This document shows positions 6,224 to 50,896 of a stretch of DNA of 64,000 nt, piece after piece. This DNA is from Amycolatopsis sp. DSM 110486 (lineage in GTDB: Bacteria; Actinomycetota; Actinomycetes; Mycobacteriales; Pseudonocardiaceae): positions 5,722,001 to 5,786,000 of the forward strand of contig NZ_CP080519.1 in NCBI RefSeq assembly GCF_019468465.1, in the 5' to 3' direction. The notes below the pieces were generated by a model, which searched no databases, was not told the DNA's origin, and worked only from the letters and a program-made list of their open reading frames with translations. The translations under genes were made by a program, and so were the position numbers. Position 1 is the stretch's first letter; each line of letters opens with the position of its first letter.

Positions 6224-6658
6224 GTGAACGAACAGAGCTCTCCCGACGTCGTGGCCCAGCGGCTGCGGATCCTCGTCGGCCGGTTGCGGCGGCGGATGCA
6301 GGACGCGTCGTCCGTGCGTGGACTGAGTGCGCCGCAGGCGTCGGCGTTGGCGCGGCTGGCGATTTCCGAACCGTCGTCGGCCAGTCAGCTGGCGGGTGCG
6401 GAGCGGGTCCGGCCGCAGTCGATGGCCAAGACGGTCGCGGCGCTGCACGAGCAGGGCCTGATCCGGCGCGAGGCCGACGCCGAAGACGCGCGACGCCAGC
6501 TGCTCTTCCTGACCGACGAGGGGCGCGCCGTCGCCCAGGGGGCCCGCGCCAGCCGGGAAGAGTGGCTGGCCAACGCGTTCGAGCAGCGCTTCACCGAGGC
6601 CGAGCGCCAGGTCCTGGACCAGGCACTGACCTTGCTGGAGCGCGTGGTCGAAGAATGA
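6224..6658 (+). CDS. MarR-family transcriptional regulator
   Basis: 144 residues with a winged helix-turn-helix in the middle: SASQLAGAERVRPQSMAKTV is the recognition segment (about 52-72), and DAEDARRQLLFLTDEGR (about 86-102) is the wing signature of MarR proteins. Flanking helices would form the dimer interface. The stop overlaps the ATG of the downstream MFS gene as ATGA, so regulator and transporter form one operon, the standard arrangement for a repressor that senses the exported drug or phenolic compound. The 10-bp inverted repeat directly upstream is the likely operator. GTG at 6224 is supported by this layout. Confidence 0.9.
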   Translation: MNEQSSPDVVAQRLRILVGRLRRRMQDASSVRGLSAPQASALARLAISEPSSASQLAGAERVRPQSMAKTVAALHEQGLIRREADAEDARRQLLFLTDEGRAVAQGARASREEWLANAFEQRFTEAERQVLDQALTLLERVVEE

Positions 6659-8631
6659 GCGCGCCCGTGAAGCCCCGCGAGCGGTTCGGCGCGGGCGACG
6701 GGTTCAACCGCAAGCTCATCGCACCACTCGTCTCCGGCGCGATCCTGAACCCGATCAACTCCACGATCGTCTCGGTCGCTCTGGTGTCGATCGGCGTCGC
6801 GTTCGGCGCGCCACCCTCGCAGACGGCGTGGCTGATCTCCGCGCTCTACCTCGCGACGGCGGTCGGCCAGCCCGTGGTCGGGCGCCTCATCGACATCTAC
6901 GGTCCGCGCCGGCTGTTCCTCCCCGCGACGGCTCTGGTCGGGGTAGCGGGTGTGATCGGCGCGCTGGCGCCGAACCTGGCGGTGCTGATCGTCGCCCGCG
7001 TGATCCTCGGCTTCGGTACCTGCGCCGGCTACCCCGCGGCGATGCGGCTGATCCGTGACGAAGGCCGCCGCACGGGCAAGGACAGTCCCGCCGGTGTGCT
7101 CACCATCCTGGCGATCGCCACGCAGACCATCGCCGTGATCGGCCCGCCGCTGGGCGGGCTGCTGATCGGCCTCGGCGGCTGGCAGGCCACGCTGGCGATC
7201 AACATCCCCATCGCGATCGTGGCGTTCGTGCTCGGCCGGCTGCGTTTCCCGCGCGACGAACGCGCCCCGGGCAAGCTGAACCTCGACTTCCCCGGCATGG
7301 CCCTGTTCGCGACGACGCTGGTCGCGCTCCTGCTGTTCCTCATGAACCCGCACGCCGGCTCGTGGTACCTGCTCGTGATCACCGCGCTCGCCGCCGCGGG
7401 TTTCACGGTGCACGAGCTGCGCCACCCCCGCCCGTTCATCGACCTGCGGGTGCTCGGCGGCAACATCCCGCTGCTGCTCACCTACGGCCGTGCCCTGCTC
7501 GCGTACATCGTCTCCTACAGCTTCATCTACGGCTTCACCCAATGGCTCGAGGACGGCCGCGGCCTGTCGGCGAGCACCACGGGCCTGGTCACGCTGCCGA
7601 TGTTCGCCACCGGCATCGTCGTCTCGGCGATCACCGGACGCCGGCAGGGCCTGCGCGGCAAGCTGGTCGTCGCCGCTGTCGCGCAACTCGTCGCGTGTGT
7701 GCTCTTGCTGACGCTGGTGCCGACCAGTCCGTTGTGGACGATCGTCGGGATCGTGCTGATCTTCGGCATCCCGCAGGGCCTCAACAGCCTCGCGCTGCAG
7801 AACGCCGTGTACCGGCAGGCGAATCCCGACGACGTCGGCACGTCCGCGGGCCTGCTGCGCACCTTCGGCTACCTCGGCGCCATCGTCTCCTCCGCCGCAC
7901 AAGGCGGTTTCTACGGTCAACGGGCCGACACCGGCGGCCTCCATCACCTGGCGTGGTTCCTGGTGATCGCGAGCGTCGTCTTCCTGCTCGTCAACGTCCT
8001 CGACCGGACGCTGGCGCGATCCACCCATCCCGAAAGGCACCCGGAAATGACCGAACAGCTCGACCCGGCCCGCACTGCCCTGCTCGTCATGGACTACCAG
8101 GCCGGCATCGTGAGCCGCGTCGCCGACGACCAGGCGCTCCTCGATCGCGTCGGCACCGCGATCTCCGACGTCCGCGCCCACGGCGGGCACGTCGGCTGGG
8201 TCCGCGTCGGCTTCGACGACGCCGAGTTCGACGCCATCCCGTCCACCAGCGTGTTCGCCCGCATGGTGGCGCCCGAAAGCCGCGCGGTGATGCACGCCGA
8301 CGCCCCGGCCACCCAGATCGACGAGCGGCTCAGCCCGCAGCCGCAGGACGTCTCGGTGCGCAAGATCCGCGTCGGCGCGTTCACCACCACCGACCTCGAC
8401 ACCCAGCTGCGCGAGCGCGACGTCGACACCCTCGTGCTGGCCGGCATCAGCACCAGCGGCGTGGTGCTCAGCACCGTGCGCGAGGCGATGGACCGCGACT
8501 ACCGGATCCTCGTGCTCGACGACGCCAGCGCCGACCCGGAGCCCGGCACCCACGAGTTCCTCACCGGCACGATCTTCCCGAAGTTCGCCACCGTGCTCGA
8601 CGTCGACGCGCTGGCGAAGCTCTGGGCCTAG
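6655..8631 (+). CDS. MFS exporter fused in frame to an isochorismatase-like hydrolase domain
   Basis: One uninterrupted 658-residue frame. Residues 1-464 are a major facilitator transporter of drug:H+ antiporter type with about 12-14 hydrophobic helices (motifs INSTIVSVAL, VVGRLIDIYGPRRLF, RVILGFGTCAGYPAAMRLI). From about 465, MTEQLDPARTALLVMDYQAG begins a complete isochorismatase-like domain. In it the Asp (VMDYQ) and Lys (RKIRVGAF) positions are kept, but the usual catalytic Cys is absent: the loop reads AGISTSGVVLSTVREA, with Val at that position. An ATG at 8047 preceded by GAAAGG (8032-8037) could allow separate translation of the second domain. These are normally two genes, so either a stop codon was lost or the second product is also made alone. 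It converges with iolD with 4 nt of overlap. Confidence 0.85.
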   Translation: MSAPVKPRERFGAGDGFNRKLIAPLVSGAILNPINSTIVSVALVSIGVAFGAPPSQTAWLISALYLATAVGQPVVGRLIDIYGPRRLFLPATALVGVAGVIGALAPNLAVLIVARVILGFGTCAGYPAAMRLIRDEGRRTGKDSPAGVLTILAIATQTIAVIGPPLGGLLIGLGGWQATLAINIPIAIVAFVLGRLRFPRDERAPGKLNLDFPGMALFATTLVALLLFLMNPHAGSWYLLVITALAAAGFTVHELRHPRPFIDLRVLGGNIPLLLTYGRALLAYIVSYSFIYGFTQWLEDGRGLSASTTGLVTLPMFATGIVVSAITGRRQGLRGKLVVAAVAQLVACVLLLTLVPTSPLWTIVGIVLIFGIPQGLNSLALQNAVYRQANPDDVGTSAGLLRTFGYLGAIVSSAAQGGFYGQRADTGGLHHLAWFLVIASVVFLLVNVLDRTLARSTHPERHPEMTEQLDPARTALLVMDYQAGIVSRVADDQALLDRVGTAISDVRAHGGHVGWVRVGFDDAEFDAIPSTSVFARMVAPESRAVMHADAPATQIDERLSPQPQDVSVRKIRVGAFTTTDLDTQLRERDVDTLVLAGISTSGVVLSTVREAMDRDYRILVLDDASADPEPGTHEFLTGTIFPKFATVLDVDALAKLWA

Positions 8632-45411: not shown

Positions 45412-46761
45412 GTGTCGAGTACCTGGTTCTGGATCGTCATCGTCGCCGTCGTCGTCTTGGTCGCCGTGCTGGTGTCCGGGCTGCTCATCGCACGTCGGCG
45501 GCGGATCAGCCTCGAACAGACGCGCAAGGTCGAGGAGAAGCCGAAGGGTGGCGGGTACACCGCGTCCGGCGGCATCACCTTCGCGCCCGGAGGTGAGGCC
45601 GAGGCTGCCCCTCAGGCGGAACCGGTGCCGGCCGAGCACCCCGTCGAGGACCGCCCGGAGGTCGACGGCCAGCCCGCCGTGGGCGACGACGCCGCGGTGC
45701 CGCGCGACTCCGACCAGCGCACGATGCGCGACGTCAAGCTGCCCGAGCCGGAGTCGGAAGGCCCCGCGGCTGCGCCGGTCGCCGGCACCGTCGAACCGAT
45801 CGAGCCGGTCCTCCCGATCGAGGAGATCGACCCCGCGGCAGGCCGCCTGGATCGCCTGCGCGGCCGGCTGTCGAAGTCGCGCTCGATGTTCGGCCAGAGC
45901 CTGCTGGGCCTGCTCGGCGCCGGCGACCTCGACGAGGACTCCTGGCAGGACGTCGAGGACTCGCTGCTCATCGCCGACCTCGGCGCGGCCACCACGACCC
46001 AGATCGTCGAACGCCTGCGTGACGAGCTGTCGCGCCGCGCGGTGCGCACGCCCGCCGAAGCGCGCGAAGTGCTGCGCGAGGTCCTGACCGCTTCGCTGTC
46101 CACGGACGGCATCCGCGCCGTGCGCGCGCTGCCGCACGAGGTCGACGGCCAGAAGCAGCCCGCCGTCGTGCTCGTCGCCGGCGTGAACGGCACCGGCAAG
46201 ACCACCACTACCGGCAAACTCGCGCGCGTGCTCGTCTCGCAGGGATCCACCGTGGTGCTCGGCGCGGCCGACACCTTCCGCGCCGCGGCCGCCGACCAGC
46301 TCCAGACCTGGGGCGACCGGGTCGGCGCGTCGGTCGTGCGCGGCAAGGAAGGCGCCGACCCCGCGGCCGTCGCGTTCGACGCGGTGAAGCGCGGCATCGA
46401 CGAAGGCGCCGACGCGGTCCTCGTCGACACCGCAGGCCGCCTGCACACCAAAACCGGCCTCATGGACGAGCTCGGCAAGGTCAAGCGCGTGGTCGAGAAG
46501 CAGGCGAAGGTCGACGAGGTCCTGCTGGTGCTCGACGCCACTACGGGCCAGAACGGCCTCGCCCAGGCCCGCGTGTTCTCCGAAGTCATCGACGTCACGG
46601 GCATCGTGCTGACCAAGCTCGACGGCACGGCCAAGGGCGGCATCGTCTTCCAGGTCCAGAAGGAGCTCGGAGTGCCGGTGAAGCTGGTCGGCCTCGGTGA
46701 GGGCCCGGACGACCTGGCACCGTTCGAGCCCGGCGCGTTCGTGGACGCCCTGCTCGGCTGA
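45412..46761 (+). CDS. ftsY: Signal recognition particle receptor FtsY
   Basis: 449 residues. An N-terminal transmembrane helix (FWIVIVAVVVLVAVLVSGLL) and an acidic, disordered A-domain (about 30-140) precede the NG GTPase domain. G motifs are GVNGTGKTTTTGKLA (about 257), DTFRAAAADQL, DTAGRLHTK and TKLDGTAKGG, ending with LGEGPDDLAPFEPGAFVDAL. It docks SRP-ribosome complexes at the membrane. The GTG at 45412 follows GACAGGATGG. In most actinobacteria it lies directly after smc; here three minus-strand genes intervene. Confidence 0.96.
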   Translation: MSSTWFWIVIVAVVVLVAVLVSGLLIARRRRISLEQTRKVEEKPKGGGYTASGGITFAPGGEAEAAPQAEPVPAEHPVEDRPEVDGQPAVGDDAAVPRDSDQRTMRDVKLPEPESEGPAAAPVAGTVEPIEPVLPIEEIDPAAGRLDRLRGRLSKSRSMFGQSLLGLLGAGDLDEDSWQDVEDSLLIADLGAATTTQIVERLRDELSRRAVRTPAEAREVLREVLTASLSTDGIRAVRALPHEVDGQKQPAVVLVAGVNGTGKTTTTGKLARVLVSQGSTVVLGAADTFRAAAADQLQTWGDRVGASVVRGKEGADPAAVAFDAVKRGIDEGADAVLVDTAGRLHTKTGLMDELGKVKRVVEKQAKVDEVLLVLDATTGQNGLAQARVFSEVIDVTGIVLTKLDGTAKGGIVFQVQKELGVPVKLVGLGEGPDDLAPFEPGAFVDALLG

Positions 46762-46869: not shown

Positions 46870-47424
46870 ATGACGGGCGGGTTCGACGCCGTAACGGAGG
46901 AGCTCGAACGCGCCGCCGACACCATCGGCGACGTCGTCGGGGGCGCCGCGGGCCTGCTGTGGCAGGGCCCGAGCGGCGACTACGGGCACCCCGGCGTGCA
47001 GGCGGGCTGGGGCAGCTTCATCGCGGACATCGAGTCCGTCGTCGAAGGACTCACCGGTAAGGCCCACGGCCACGGCGAGGACCTGCGCACGGCGGCGGTC
47101 CGCTACGCGGGCGCCGACGACACCGCGAGCGACTCGATCGTGAAGACCGCGGCGAAGGCGTTCGGCGGCTCTTCCGGCGGCGGCATCTTCGGCCCACTCG
47201 GCGAGATCCTGCACACCTCCGTTGACCCGAAGCCGGGCGACGGCGAGAAGCTCGGTCCCGCGTGGACCGGCGGCGCGACCGGCCGCATCAGCGGGTCGAT
47301 CGACGAACTCCCGCCGGACGTGATGAGTCCCGAGCGCTCCCGGGAGCTGTTCCCCCGTCCGAAGTCCGAGGTGGAGGGCCCTGACCCCGTAACAGAGGCG
47401 GACGGCGAAGGACCGGTGTTCTGA
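46870..47424 (+). CDS. WXG/ESX-associated-like small protein, first gene of a secretion-type cassette
   Basis: 184 residues, not assigned to a named family with certainty. Residues 1-90 are predicted mostly helical (VTEELERAADTIGDVVGGAA; IADIESVVEGLTGKA; LRTAAVRYAGADD) with LLWQG at 30-33, resembling ESX-1 secretion-associated/WXG-type proteins of actinobacteria, where such helical hairpins end in a YxxxD-like segment (here RYAGADD). The C-terminal half is Gly/Pro-rich and probably disordered. No signal peptide is present. The stop shares one base with the next gene (TGATG), indicating coupling. GGGGG lies directly before the ATG at 46870. Confidence 0.6.
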   Translation: MTGGFDAVTEELERAADTIGDVVGGAAGLLWQGPSGDYGHPGVQAGWGSFIADIESVVEGLTGKAHGHGEDLRTAAVRYAGADDTASDSIVKTAAKAFGGSSGGGIFGPLGEILHTSVDPKPGDGEKLGPAWTGGATGRISGSIDELPPDVMSPERSRELFPRPKSEVEGPDPVTEADGEGPVF

Positions 47425-48839
47425 TGGCCGCCGAAATGGGGGAGACGACCGACCCGAAGGACCTCGTCCCCGGCGAGCCGCGCTTCATCTCGGGCGACCT
47501 GAAGGATCTCGTCCGCAACATCCAGAAGATGGCCGCGATCTCCGACGGCCTCTCGGGCGTCGACGCGAAGCAGTGGTCCGGCGTAGCGAGCGACCGGTTC
47601 CGCGAGACCTTCGGCCGGGAGCCGAAGAAGTGGTTCGACACCATCGGCGTCCTGGGCACCGGCGCCAACGCCCTCGCCGATTACGGCGACGCCCTGACGC
47701 GCAGCCAGTCCGAAGCCCAGCGGGCGATCGAGCTGTACACGCAGGGCCAGGCCGCCACGCGGGCCGCGTCCGCGCAGTGGATTGTGGACGCCTACAAGGC
47801 CCTCACCGGCGGGTACTCGGTCCCGGCCTTCGCCGACCCCGGTCAGGGCGCGACGCAGGAGGCCGAGCGGATCCTGAGGGCCGCCCGCGCCGCTCTGGAA
47901 GAGGCCGGCGGTTCCACGGCGGAAAAGCTGGGCTTCGAGAAGAAGGCCGACGGTACGTACAAAAAGGATCTCGGGGATTCCCACGAGTTCGGCGCTGCGC
48001 ACCGCGACAAAGAGACGAAGACGGAGTGGGACCCCGACAAGAAGAAGTGGGTCAAGGTCGAGGAGGACCCCGGCGGCTGGCAGGACCACAAGGGCGGCAA
48101 GAACTATTCCCGCGAATTCGGTTCGCAGTCCGACGGCATGCTCACCGACAAACTCGGCGGCCTCCTCGAAAAGTTCGGCATCGACACCTCCGAAAGCACG
48201 GTGTCGGCGTCGGCGAGTGTCGACCTCGTCGACGGCTCGCTGGAGGGGAAGTTCGGCGACGGAACCTTCGGCGGCAGCGGCAAAATCGAGGGCGCGGCCC
48301 TCGGCGCCGGCGCCGAGGCGCACGCCGGTGCGGGCCCGCTGGGTCTCACGGCGGGCGCGTCGGCCGAGGCGTACCTGGCTAAGGGCAGTGCCCAGGGTGA
48401 GGTCCACTACGGCGACCACGTCTCGGTCAAGGGCGATGCCTCGGCCGAGGTCGGAGCCAAGGCGTCCGCCCAGGGATCGCTCGGCTGGTCCGGGATGCAG
48501 GGCAGCGTCGAAGGATTCGCGGGCGGCCGCATCGAGGCCAACGCGAGCGCCGAGGTCGCCGGTGTCACCGCCGGTGCGCACGGCGAGGCGTGGGCCGGCG
48601 TCGGGGCCGAGGCGAGCGCCCAGTTCGGCATGGGCGACGACGGGAAGTTCCACGTCGGCGCTTCGCTCGGCGTGGCCCTGGGTATCGGTGGCAAGGTCGG
48701 GTTCGACCTCAGCATCGATCCGGGTGAGGTCGTCGACACCGTGCAGGACGTGGCCGGTGACGTCGCCGACGTGGCCTCCGACGTCGGGCACGGCATCGCG
48801 AACGCCGCGGGCGCGGTGGGCGACTTCCTCGGCTTCTGA
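47424..48839 (+). CDS. Putative T7SS-secreted protein with WxG N-terminus and Gly/Ala strand repeats
   Basis: 471 residues. The N-terminal 150 residues form an alpha-helical WXG100-like region with WSG at 51-53 followed by FRETFGREPKKWF and a long helix (SQSEAQRAIELYTQGQAATR). A charged linker (about 180-240, DKETKTEWDPDKKKW) leads to about 190 residues of alternating small/polar pattern such as GAGAEAHAGAG, VKGDASAEVGAKASAQGSLG and VTAGAHGEAWAGVGAEASA, which resembles repetitive beta-strand or beta-helix structure. It ends in an amphipathic helix (VVDTVQDVAGDVADVASDVG). There is no recognisable toxin domain, signal peptide or transmembrane helix. Proteins annotated as putative T7SS-secreted have this plan; the role is unknown. 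Confidence 0.65.
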   Translation: MAAEMGETTDPKDLVPGEPRFISGDLKDLVRNIQKMAAISDGLSGVDAKQWSGVASDRFRETFGREPKKWFDTIGVLGTGANALADYGDALTRSQSEAQRAIELYTQGQAATRAASAQWIVDAYKALTGGYSVPAFADPGQGATQEAERILRAARAALEEAGGSTAEKLGFEKKADGTYKKDLGDSHEFGAAHRDKETKTEWDPDKKKWVKVEEDPGGWQDHKGGKNYSREFGSQSDGMLTDKLGGLLEKFGIDTSESTVSASASVDLVDGSLEGKFGDGTFGGSGKIEGAALGAGAEAHAGAGPLGLTAGASAEAYLAKGSAQGEVHYGDHVSVKGDASAEVGAKASAQGSLGWSGMQGSVEGFAGGRIEANASAEVAGVTAGAHGEAWAGVGAEASAQFGMGDDGKFHVGASLGVALGIGGKVGFDLSIDPGEVVDTVQDVAGDVADVASDVGHGIANAAGAVGDFLGF

Positions 48840-48864
48840 CCACCAGAGATTCGGAGCAGACACA

Positions 48865-49365
48865 GTGGCAGGCACTCTCCCCGTCCCGATCGTCTTCGAG
48901 CTGCCGGACGGATGGCGATCCGTTCCGCCCGACGAAGTCGGCACGCCGGACGCCGCGTTCGTCGCGCTCAACACCGGCAGTTCGCGCGAGGGCTTCACGG
49001 CGAACATCACGATCACCGGCGAGCTCCGCGAGGACGACGCGCCGCTCACGGCCATCGGTGACGAGGCCGTCGAGCGGTTGCGGAGCGCGGGCGCACAGGG
49101 CGTGCAGCTCGGGCGGCGCAACGAGGTCGGCTCGGCGGAGAACCCGGGTCTCACGCAGGCGGTGAAGTTGACCGTCGGCCTCAAGGGCAAGCAGGTTGAC
49201 CTCGTGCAGTTCCAGGTGTTCATGGTCATGCGAGACCAGCAAAACCCGGAGCGGCGCGCGGTCTTGCACATCGTGCTGTCCGCGCTGCTGGAAAACCAGT
49301 TCGAGCACGTCATCGACGACTTCCAGAAGTTCCTCACCACCGTCAAACCGGAGCAGGCGGCATGA
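48865..49365 (+). CDS. LpqN/DUF1795-like small protein of the cassette
   Basis: 166 residues. FELPDGWRSVPPDEVGTPDA at the start, the middle FTANITITGELRE and the C-terminal helix FEHVIDDFQKFLTTV suggest the PsbP/LpqN/DUF1795-like alpha-beta fold seen in mycobacterial lipoproteins and T7SS-linked proteins. No signal peptide is present, so this copy would be cytoplasmic or carried out by another route. GTG 48865 starts 25 nt after the previous stop and follows GGAGCAGA. The stop overlaps the YbaB-like gene by 4 nt. Confidence 0.6.
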   Translation: MAGTLPVPIVFELPDGWRSVPPDEVGTPDAAFVALNTGSSREGFTANITITGELREDDAPLTAIGDEAVERLRSAGAQGVQLGRRNEVGSAENPGLTQAVKLTVGLKGKQVDLVQFQVFMVMRDQQNPERRAVLHIVLSALLENQFEHVIDDFQKFLTTVKPEQAA

Positions 49366-49832
49366 ACGACACCGCACGGCAGCTGCTGGCCCGCATCGAG
49401 GCGATCGACACGGCCGCGGCGGACAACCGCTTGCGGGCCGAGGCATACAAGCGCGTGGCCGACGAACTGAAAGACGCGATGGGCAGCGCCACCTCACCGG
49501 ACGGCGTGGTCGCCGTAGTCGCTGGTCCCGGCGGTGCGATCGCGTCGGTCACCTTCAGCGAACGGGCCCGGGAAACGGATCCCGCTGTGCTGTCGTCGGA
49601 CGTCATGCGCGCGATCGGCGAAGCGCAGGCTGCGGCGGCGCGGATGCAGGCCGACGTGGTGCGCCGCGGACTCGGCAGTACCGAGTTCCTCAACCGCGTG
49701 CTCGACTCCGACGAGCAGCTCTTCGGCGCTCCTCGCCCGGCAGCGCCGGCCCCGCCGAAGCCGACTCGAGCAGCGCCCGCGGACGACGAGTTCGACGACT
49801 TCAGCGTCTACGACCAAGAGCCGACCCGGTGA
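49362..49832 (+). CDS. YbaB/EbfC-family-like protein
   Basis: 156 residues. A helical N-terminus (ARQLLARIEAIDTAAADNRL) is followed by the YbaB-type strand region SPDGVVAVVAGPGGAIASVT and the helix DPAVLSSDVMRAIGEAQAAA, the core of the YbaB/EbfC DNA-binding fold. The C-terminal 35 residues are Pro/Ala/Asp-rich. Divergent YbaB-like proteins are repeatedly found beside WXG/T7SS-type genes in actinobacteria, where their role is unknown. Overlaps of 4 nt on both sides tie it to the cassette. Confidence 0.75.
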   Translation: MNDTARQLLARIEAIDTAAADNRLRAEAYKRVADELKDAMGSATSPDGVVAVVAGPGGAIASVTFSERARETDPAVLSSDVMRAIGEAQAAAARMQADVVRRGLGSTEFLNRVLDSDEQLFGAPRPAAPAPPKPTRAAPADDEFDDFSVYDQEPTR

Positions 49833-50569
49833 GCACAGCGCTCATCCTCGTGATCGTCATCGGCGGCACGCTCCTGATCGCGGCCGCGGTGACGTGGTTC
49901 GTGGTGTGGAACAACCGCGGTATGCAGCGCGCCGAAGCCGGGGTGTTGCAGCGGCTGAGCCAGGAATCGCCGCGGCGGGGCTGGCAGTACGAGGAGCGCA
50001 ACGACTCCTACTGCGCCTTCTACAACGAAGGCGACCACTATCTGCAGCGTTCCTTCGCGGACGAGCTGTTCTCACCGAGCGATCCGTTCGCGCGGCTGCC
50101 CGAGGCGTTCGAGGCGCACGAGATCGTGAGCGGGACGCACCGGGGACGCCCCTTCCTCGGCGCCAGGTTCAAGGTGCGCCAACGCGGCGTGGCCATCCAC
50201 TACACGCGGGCCGTGTGGGTGCGCACTCCGAAACTCGGCCCTGCCCTGCAGGTGGGCCCGGCGGTGGCGCTCGAGAGCCGCGTGAACGACTCGATCGGAC
50301 GCGGCGACCTTCGAGTGGGCGACCCCGAGTTCGACGAGCGCTACGAGGTGCTCACCGGCGACGATCGCTTCGCCCGTGCGGTGCTCGTACCGCAGGTCAC
50401 CCAGTTCTTGAAGACCGACCCTCGCGAATTCCGCGGGTTCACCTTGTTCGGCGCGAACTTCGTGGTCCTCGACCGCCTCGTCGATCACCGTGATCCCGAA
50501 AAACTCGTCGCCGCATTGGACTTGCGGTGCGACCTGCTGGATTTGGTTCCGCGTTCCGTCTGGGCCTAG
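49829..50569 (+). CDS. Membrane-anchored protein of the cassette, unknown function
   Basis: 246 residues. One N-terminal transmembrane helix (ALILVIVIGGTLLIAAAVTWFVVW, residues about 4-27) is followed by a 215-residue cytoplasmic-looking alpha/beta domain: RRGWQYEERNDSYCAFYN, SGTHRGRPFLGARFKVRQRG, IHYTRAVWVRTPKLGPALQV and FRGFTLFGANFVVLDRLVDH. I do not recognise the family beyond its occurrence in such actinobacterial clusters. GTG 49829 overlaps the YbaB-like stop (GTGA). It could anchor the other products at the membrane; that is inference. Confidence 0.6.
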   Translation: MSTALILVIVIGGTLLIAAAVTWFVVWNNRGMQRAEAGVLQRLSQESPRRGWQYEERNDSYCAFYNEGDHYLQRSFADELFSPSDPFARLPEAFEAHEIVSGTHRGRPFLGARFKVRQRGVAIHYTRAVWVRTPKLGPALQVGPAVALESRVNDSIGRGDLRVGDPEFDERYEVLTGDDRFARAVLVPQVTQFLKTDPREFRGFTLFGANFVVLDRLVDHRDPEKLVAALDLRCDLLDLVPRSVWA

Positions 50570-50581
50570 AGGAGGCTGGCT

Positions 50582-50896
50582 GTGGTGCGTCGTTTGTTGG
50601 TCGCGGTGTGTGGCATCGCTTTGGTGGCCGGGTGTTCCGCGCACGTGGAGGTGACGCGGCGGGTGGCGAAGGCCGATCTGGAGAAGGGGATCGCCGACGC
50701 GCTGCAGAGCTCGATCGGGCAGCGGCCGGACACGGTGACGTGCCCAGGGCCGATCGACGCGAAAGTCGGGCAGCAGATGCGCTGCGAGCTGAGCGCCGGC
50801 ACGACCAGGGCGGGCCTCACAGCGACCATCAACACCGTCAACGGCAGCGACGTCCGCTACTCGGTGAAGGTGGACGACCACGTCATCAGCAATTGA
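50582..50896 (+). CDS. DUF4333-type lipoprotein
   Basis: 104 residues. The signal peptide MVRRLLVAVCGIALVAGC ends in a clear lipobox (LVAGC, Cys18). The remainder matches the DUF4333 pattern: VAKADLEKGIADALQ, a conserved cysteine pair in DTVTCPGPIDAKVGQQMRCE (a likely disulfide) and VNGSDVRYSVKVDD. The function of DUF4333 is unknown; it is common in actinobacterial lipoproteins. GTG 50582 has GGAGG close upstream, and the gene starts 12 nt after the previous one, so it probably belongs to the same transcript. Confidence 0.8.
   Translation: MVRRLLVAVCGIALVAGCSAHVEVTRRVAKADLEKGIADALQSSIGQRPDTVTCPGPIDAKVGQQMRCELSAGTTRAGLTATINTVNGSDVRYSVKVDDHVISN

Follow-up and report, generated by a model that had tools for sequence, protein, structure and literature searches.

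Candidate type VII secretion cargo with a strand-repeat domain and a Mog1/PsbP-fold partner in a six-gene cassette of Amycolatopsis sp. DSM 110486

Several described systems resemble the locus considered here, as far as the available text of the papers cited goes. The espACD genes of ESX-1 lie more than 260 kb from their machine, EspH binds EspE, and EspH, EspD and EspL have been proposed to be YbaB-like or chaperone proteins (PMC6107294, PMC6319747). The C-terminus of the prophiGD54-2 toxin is described as a distant relative of AvrE, and its immunity protein as an LpqN-like lipoprotein (PMC8092301); AvrE-family proteins are described as porin-like channels (PMC10511319). PsbP/Mog1-like genes beside toxins of the type VI secretion system (T6SS) were noted in 2012 (PMC3482391), and the Eag chaperones of T6SS effectors are DUF1795 proteins (PMC7773334). 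Our subject is a cassette of six genes, g1 to g6, in a 64,000-nucleotide stretch of the Amycolatopsis sp. DSM 110486 genome (contig NZ_CP080519.1, here C1, positions 5,722,001 to 5,786,000; the window). We read it, with about even confidence, as an espACD-like set of cargo genes of the type VII secretion system (T7SS) that is detached from its machine, and in which g3 is the partner of a strand-repeat domain in g2.

Like espACD and espE-espF-espH, as far as these are described in the available text, the cassette combines an EspC-like partner with a YxxxD/E motif, a large cargo and a YbaB-like protein, and, like espACD, it is remote from the machine, lying ~240-260 kb from an ESX locus. It differs from espACD in that g2 carries T7SS_signal and strand repeats instead of EspA_EspE, and from both sets in g3, g5 and g6, which the available text does not name for them. 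The N-terminus of g2 is a T7SS_signal domain (PF21725, E 3.3e-29, 102.9 bits against a cut-off of 27), the sole Pfam domain of the protein, with no match to EspA_EspE, and residues W51 and G53 are kept in 27/27 orthologues. The g1 of the window matches EspC at E 0.011, below the Pfam cut-off; among 29 g1 proteins, 25 match EspC (best E 9.3e-6) and 23 match WXG100 (best E 1.8e-4), all have the YxxxD/E motif and 21 have WxG. Judged from these patterns, g1 and g2 probably form a T7SS substrate pair, an export domain and its YxxxD/E helical partner, which would leave the cell together. Searched against PDB sequences, g2 and its alignment gave weak or unrelated matches, the alignment reaching EsxA at E 0.017 only. 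The same genome has a second T7SS_signal match at C1:8674004-8674259 (L037, L073; L numbers denote loci), broken across short frames and a few kb from an ORF (open reading frame) that by eye resembles a transposase; it looks like a remnant.

The distinctive part of g2 is, by its residue pattern, a previously undescribed domain of long amphipathic strands. Hydrophobic and polar residues alternate along it with z 9.2 in the window protein and z 7.6-10.5 over 27/27 orthologues, measured against 300 shuffles. A structural model of low confidence (predicted local distance difference test, pLDDT, 53) draws seven strands of 20-23 residues each, of which only the last four have two clearly distinct faces when the strand ends of the model are used. 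Residues 433-471 are predicted to form an amphipathic helix (helical moment z 5.4, window protein only), where the pLDDT of the model is below 50. Within the protein, conservation is highest in the strand domain, with a mean pairwise identity of 0.59 (0.73 in the last 49 residues) against 0.55 for the N-terminus, and the C-terminal tip is not more variable than the rest. Foldseek returned no structure at E up to 0.001 for the model with its pLDDT of 53, and its weaker list (PE/PPE/EspG complexes and outer-membrane barrels, all at E >0.01) was set aside on account of that score. The domain matches five phage records at 32-50% identity over 22-56% of the query, all of them Mycobacterium abscessus prophage genes annotated as "polymorphic toxin protein". 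Their cassettes, in the available description, share with ours a related strand domain, a WXG N-terminus and an LpqN-like next protein; ours differs in that it is chromosomal and conserved as a block, also includes YbaB, membrane and DUF4333 genes, and has a g3 that lacks a signal.

The domain recurs well beyond this cassette. Genome-wide searches, which scored a handful of top candidates in each genome, so that absences are soft, found the g2 profile in 39 of 199 genomes of the order, the strand domain in 24 (counted by hand), g3 in 23 and EccB in 135; in 296 genomes of the class the strand domain was found in 7, g3 in 4 and EccB in 114. Ten diverse strand-domain proteins include one each with T7SS_signal, WXG100, WXG100_2, EspA_EspE and PPE over the Pfam cut-off (the PPE match at 27.1 bits against 26), four with weak WXG100-type matches and one with none; at L079, EspA_EspE is fused to the strand domain. 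By domain composition, then, the strand domain is a module travelling behind five kinds of predicted T7SS export domain.

What accompanies the module is the gene that follows it. In a sample of 66 unique strand-domain genes besides that of the window (52 + 14, from 56 rows and 15 places after dropping the duplicates L042=L021, L044=L026, L045=L033, L082=L072 and L123=L028), the next gene is of the Mog1/PsbP or LpqN type in 64. A g3-profile match follows directly in 56 (47 + 9), and eight further partners belong to the wider family (L059, L066, L078, L080, L081, L118, L119, L120). The first five of these are related to one another and to g3 (hidden Markov model E down to 4e-8, hhalign probability 95.8), only that of L080 passing the Pfam LpqN cut-off; the L119 partner matches DcrB at 1.7e-6, over the cut-off, and the L120 partner matches a profile of those five at 2e-35. 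Flanks are often just 1.5 kb long, so that a missing g1, g4 or g5 there means little. No g3 was found beside any of 12 T7SS_signal-type proteins that have no strand domain (three of these loci, L060, L064 and L069, offer little DNA or a cut frame), nor did the genome-wide g3 search reveal one. With 64/66 against 0/12, the partner tracks the strand domain and not the export domain. A short form, consisting of a small ORF, a strand-domain protein, g3 and another ORF, is present on linear Streptomyces plasmids (L083:3711-6498 and L084:3783-6639).

The model of g3 (pLDDT 89) has the Mog1/PsbP fold, and comparison with Foldseek and VIA-align matched it to LpqN, MTC28, EagT6, SciW and DcrB, a list from which the lack of a family does not exclude that family. 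The window g3 has no Pfam match, and among 30 g3 proteins six touch DcrB (best E 0.016) and six LpqN (best E 0.039), so that the label "LpqN/DUF1795-like" rests on the predicted fold. Weak or unrelated matches only were obtained with g3 and its alignment against PDB sequences, and none with g3 against phages. A hydrophobic N-terminus that could act as an export signal is absent in 30/30 g3 proteins, which led us to reject g3 as a lipoprotein and sets it apart from LpqN lipoproteins with their signal peptide and lipobox. From the constant pairing, the fold and the missing signal, g3 is probably a dedicated partner of the strand domain and a candidate chaperone. It would resemble the Eag chaperones, in what is available on them, in its Mog1/PsbP fold, cytosolic location and adjoining gene, but the ligands of Eags are membrane helices at the N-terminus of PAAR effectors, with the Eag gene upstream, whereas the ligand proposed for g3 is the strand domain at the C-terminal end of a T7SS cargo, with the g3 gene downstream, and the window g3 has no DcrB/DUF1795 sequence match. 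Apart from the prophage report, we recognised no paper among those listed in searches of an open-licence library that links a Mog1/PsbP-fold partner to T7SS cargo.

A parallel set of the central genes may tie the cassette to the secretion machine. On C1, where the window occupies 5.72-5.79 Mb, EccB and EccC occur at 3.29, 4.52 and 6.02-6.04 Mb; the cassette itself has no adjoining EccB-E or mycosin and is therefore not a complete ESX locus. An ESX locus of the same genome contains another strand-domain protein (C1:6027695-6029047, 450 aa) with a WXG100-type N-terminus (23.9 bits, over the cut-off in the genome search), then a g3 paralogue (6029055-6029561) and, overlapping it by 4 nt, a YbaB protein (6029558-6029881; Pfam YbaB 6.3e-18). 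EccD follows this trio, EccC lies upstream on the opposite strand, and the region further holds EccE, EccB, an S8 protease and two WXG100-type genes, one below the cut-off. As the trio stands between eccC and eccD, g2-g3-g4 are mirrored inside an ESX locus. The training set of the g4 profile included the ESX YbaB sequence; a profile built after its removal also matches the trio loci, at E 9e-7 to 6e-6. At L117, two WXG100-like ORFs with identical ends (6513-6812 and 7163-7462) lie beside EccC-like and strand-domain genes.

The block is also conserved as a whole. A g2 scan of genome contigs yielded 27 loci, whose genes were identified by tblastn of the six proteins and ORF reconstruction. Genes g1-g4 co-occur in 26/27 loci, in the order g1-g2-g3-g4 in 24/27; g5 is present in 24/27 and a g6 match in 10/27. 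L013 and L018 are arranged as g1-g2-g3-g5-g6-g3-g4, and the exception, L035 (Streptomyces palmae), has the strand domain only, with a different N-terminus, followed by g3. Tandem double cassettes are found at L012:7363-16338 and L030:5645-12685; in L030 the first of the two has neither g5 nor g6. The ftsY gene lies at most 5 kb upstream in 11/27 loci and is not seen upstream in 16/27, where the set is still kept. All 40 genomes of the same genus have ftsY; among the 30 whose loci were examined, g1 and g2 follow it in six (the window included), L090 has a piece of g1 only, and L087 and L093 are empty sites in which an acetyltransferase gene begins no more than 20 bp after ftsY. Patchy occurrence and empty sites mark the block as an accessory element here, and preservation of the gene set across genera indicates that the grouping is not due to chance. 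The closest named relatives in the g2 scan are Amycolatopsis. One locus, L022, is possibly mislabelled: its record names Rhodococcus rhodnii, but its cassette proteins closely match the Kibdelosporangium L020 set.

In our preferred scheme, g1 would pair with the N-terminal domain of g2, and the two would bring the export signal to the ESX machine of the genome, as family knowledge suggests, while g3 would bind the strand domain in the cytosol and keep it fit for export, much as Eags do, and g4 may be a YbaB-type chaperone of the EspD/EspH kind. The sequence-only reading had tentatively assigned the chaperone, scaffold and anchor roles to the genes around g2; g3 and g4 are stronger candidates for the chaperone role than g1. 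Our guess is that g5 and g6 work at the envelope, where they might serve as an anchor, a receptor or a protective factor. Outside the cell, amphipathic hairpins might assemble at the envelope or a target membrane, and a channel is the leading guess, predicted from the amphipathic strands and from distant kin. AvrE/DspE proteins are likewise secreted and strand-rich, the sole link being the published remark on the prophage relative in the available text (PMC8092301); they are T3SS (type III secretion system) cargo of plant pathogens, set beside g2 by description. A broader proposal, possible although we doubt it, is that the strand proteins of actinobacteria form a class of T7SS cargo not described before, in which strand hairpins borne on many export domains, with genes in some cases next to those of the machine, are exported as a channel or conduit, and that the near-constant Mog1/PsbP-fold partner is the counterpart of Eag. 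To our knowledge, the handling by T7SS of cargo other than small helical pairs is poorly understood. A strand domain on five kinds of export domain with a near-constant partner suggests a partner rule for non-helical cargo, for which g2 and g3 offer a testable pair. It also connects three lines of study: the Eag chaperones of T6SS, the YbaB-like chaperones of ESX-1, and the "polymorphic toxins" of prophages, whose partners are LpqN-like.

Several observations weigh against a detached cargo cassette with g3 as chaperone. The block is unlinked to the nearest machine genes, ~240-260 kb away, and EccB is unmatched in 3/24 strand-domain genomes of the order (G003, G017, G068; counted by hand) and in 3/7 of the class (G342, G403, G410). 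An EccC-like gene lies 1.4-18.4 kb from the strand-domain gene in all six, and in G403 the order is an EccC-like gene with FtsK domains, two WXG100-like genes (the one next to the EccC-like gene below the cut-off), the strand protein and a g3-type protein; all six EccC-like matches, however, fall below the family cut-off, with a profile that also matches 8/14 control genomes. The model of the strand region is poor (pLDDT 53), and the two weakest strand matches, L121 at a contig edge and L122, a low-scoring 1218-aa frame, have no partner. At L118 (genome G191) the strand protein (L118:1049-3164) has no Pfam export domain and its partner is an LpqN lipoprotein (3.6e-41) with an apparent signal and lipobox, which therefore cannot act solely as a cytosolic chaperone; this weakens both the cargo cassette and the broader channel class. 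It strengthens the idea that g3 confers immunity, the main rival to its chaperone role. The cassette would then be an antibacterial effector-immunity set, with the strand domain as a membrane-active toxin exported by T7SS and g3 (or g5/g6) as its antidote. The prophage relatives, in the available text, are indeed described as a toxin with an LpqN-like immunity lipoprotein (PMC8092301), and the T6SS immunity proteins TplEi and Tsi3 also have the Mog1/PsbP fold, the sharing of which shows no function. The constant next gene, the small three-gene versions on Streptomyces plasmids and the patchy accessory site would fit as well. We nevertheless regard this as rather unlikely: Pfam, NCBIfam and PADLOC recognised no toxin domain in the cassette, toxin tips are variable whereas the strand domain is strongly conserved, and the missing export signal of g3 would be odd for a guard against a pore arriving from outside.

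Still less probable, in our judgement, is a non-toxic structural product, in which the strand protein would be a surface or conduit component of T7SS and the cassette a spare copy of the one in the ESX locus. The copy between eccC and eccD, the nearby EccC-like genes in the six genomes and the strong conservation speak for it, but the strand domain is far rarer than EccB, so that most machines do without the protein. That unrelated housekeeping genes adjoin by chance is very improbable: the block does follow ftsY in many Amycolatopsis, but the set is kept without ftsY upstream, is duplicated as a block and is missing from the empty sites, and we rejected a chance neighbourhood on these grounds. 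The sequence-only reading had seen neither a classical ESX locus nor a standard polymorphic toxin system here. EccC and mycosin are indeed missing from the cassette, as it said, but both halves of the statement are qualified, by the trio found within the ESX locus and by the distant kinship with annotated prophage toxins.

As for the remaining genes, g4 matches YbaB (PF02575, E 4.1e-9, over the cut-off) and gave weak or unrelated matches only against PDB sequences. The window g5 matches DUF3137 at E 0.023, below the cut-off; relatives match in 26/26 (best 1.5e-6), and an N-terminal hydrophobic segment is present in 26/26. With PF14230 (DUF4333, E 2.2e-14, over the cut-off) and the lipobox VAGC, g6 is a predicted lipoprotein; the NCBIfam label "anti-apoptotic protein" was rejected at 66 bits against a cut-off of 250. 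These matches bear out the YbaB-like, membrane-anchored and DUF4333 proteins of the sequence-only reading, just as the fold of g3 supports its LpqN/DUF1795-like protein, the Pfam matches of g2 and of g1 relatives its T7SS-like character and WXG-type first protein, the alternation and helical-moment statistics its strand repeats and amphipathic C-terminal helix, and the 27 loci the synteny for which it had asked. The ORF listing likewise confirmed six same-strand genes at 46870-50896, mostly coupled via 1- or 4-nt overlaps.

Table 1. Coordinates of the cassette genes, domains and left flank in the window
Feature	Position	Strand	Details
g1, EspC/WXG100-like export partner, WxG and YxxxD motifs	46870..47424	+	ATG start, 184 aa
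g2, putative T7SS cargo protein with strand-repeat domain	47424..48839	+	ATG, 471 aa; overlaps g1 by 1 nt
T7SS_signal domain of g2, residues 4-169	47433..47930	+	Pfam
Strand-repeat domain of g2, residues 256-433	48189..48722	+	alternation statistic and low-confidence model
C-terminal amphipathic helix region of g2, residues 434-471	48723..48836	+	helical moment
g3, predicted Mog1/PsbP-fold protein without export signal	48865..49365	+	GTG, 166 aa; 25-nt gap after g2
g4, YbaB-like protein	49362..49832	+	ATG, 156 aa; 4-nt overlap with g3
g5, DUF3137-like, N-terminal hydrophobic segment	49829..50569	+	GTG, 246 aa; 4-nt overlap with g4
g6, DUF4333 lipoprotein	50582..50896	+	GTG, 104 aa; 12-nt gap after g5
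ftsY, left flank of block	45412..46761	+	ORF; identity presumed from its sequence

PADLOC found no defence system in the cassette, which was accordingly rejected as a known one. The host genome comprises 10.98 Mb in two contigs. The left neighbour of the cassette is presumably ftsY, and the right neighbour is what we take to be an acetyltransferase gene.

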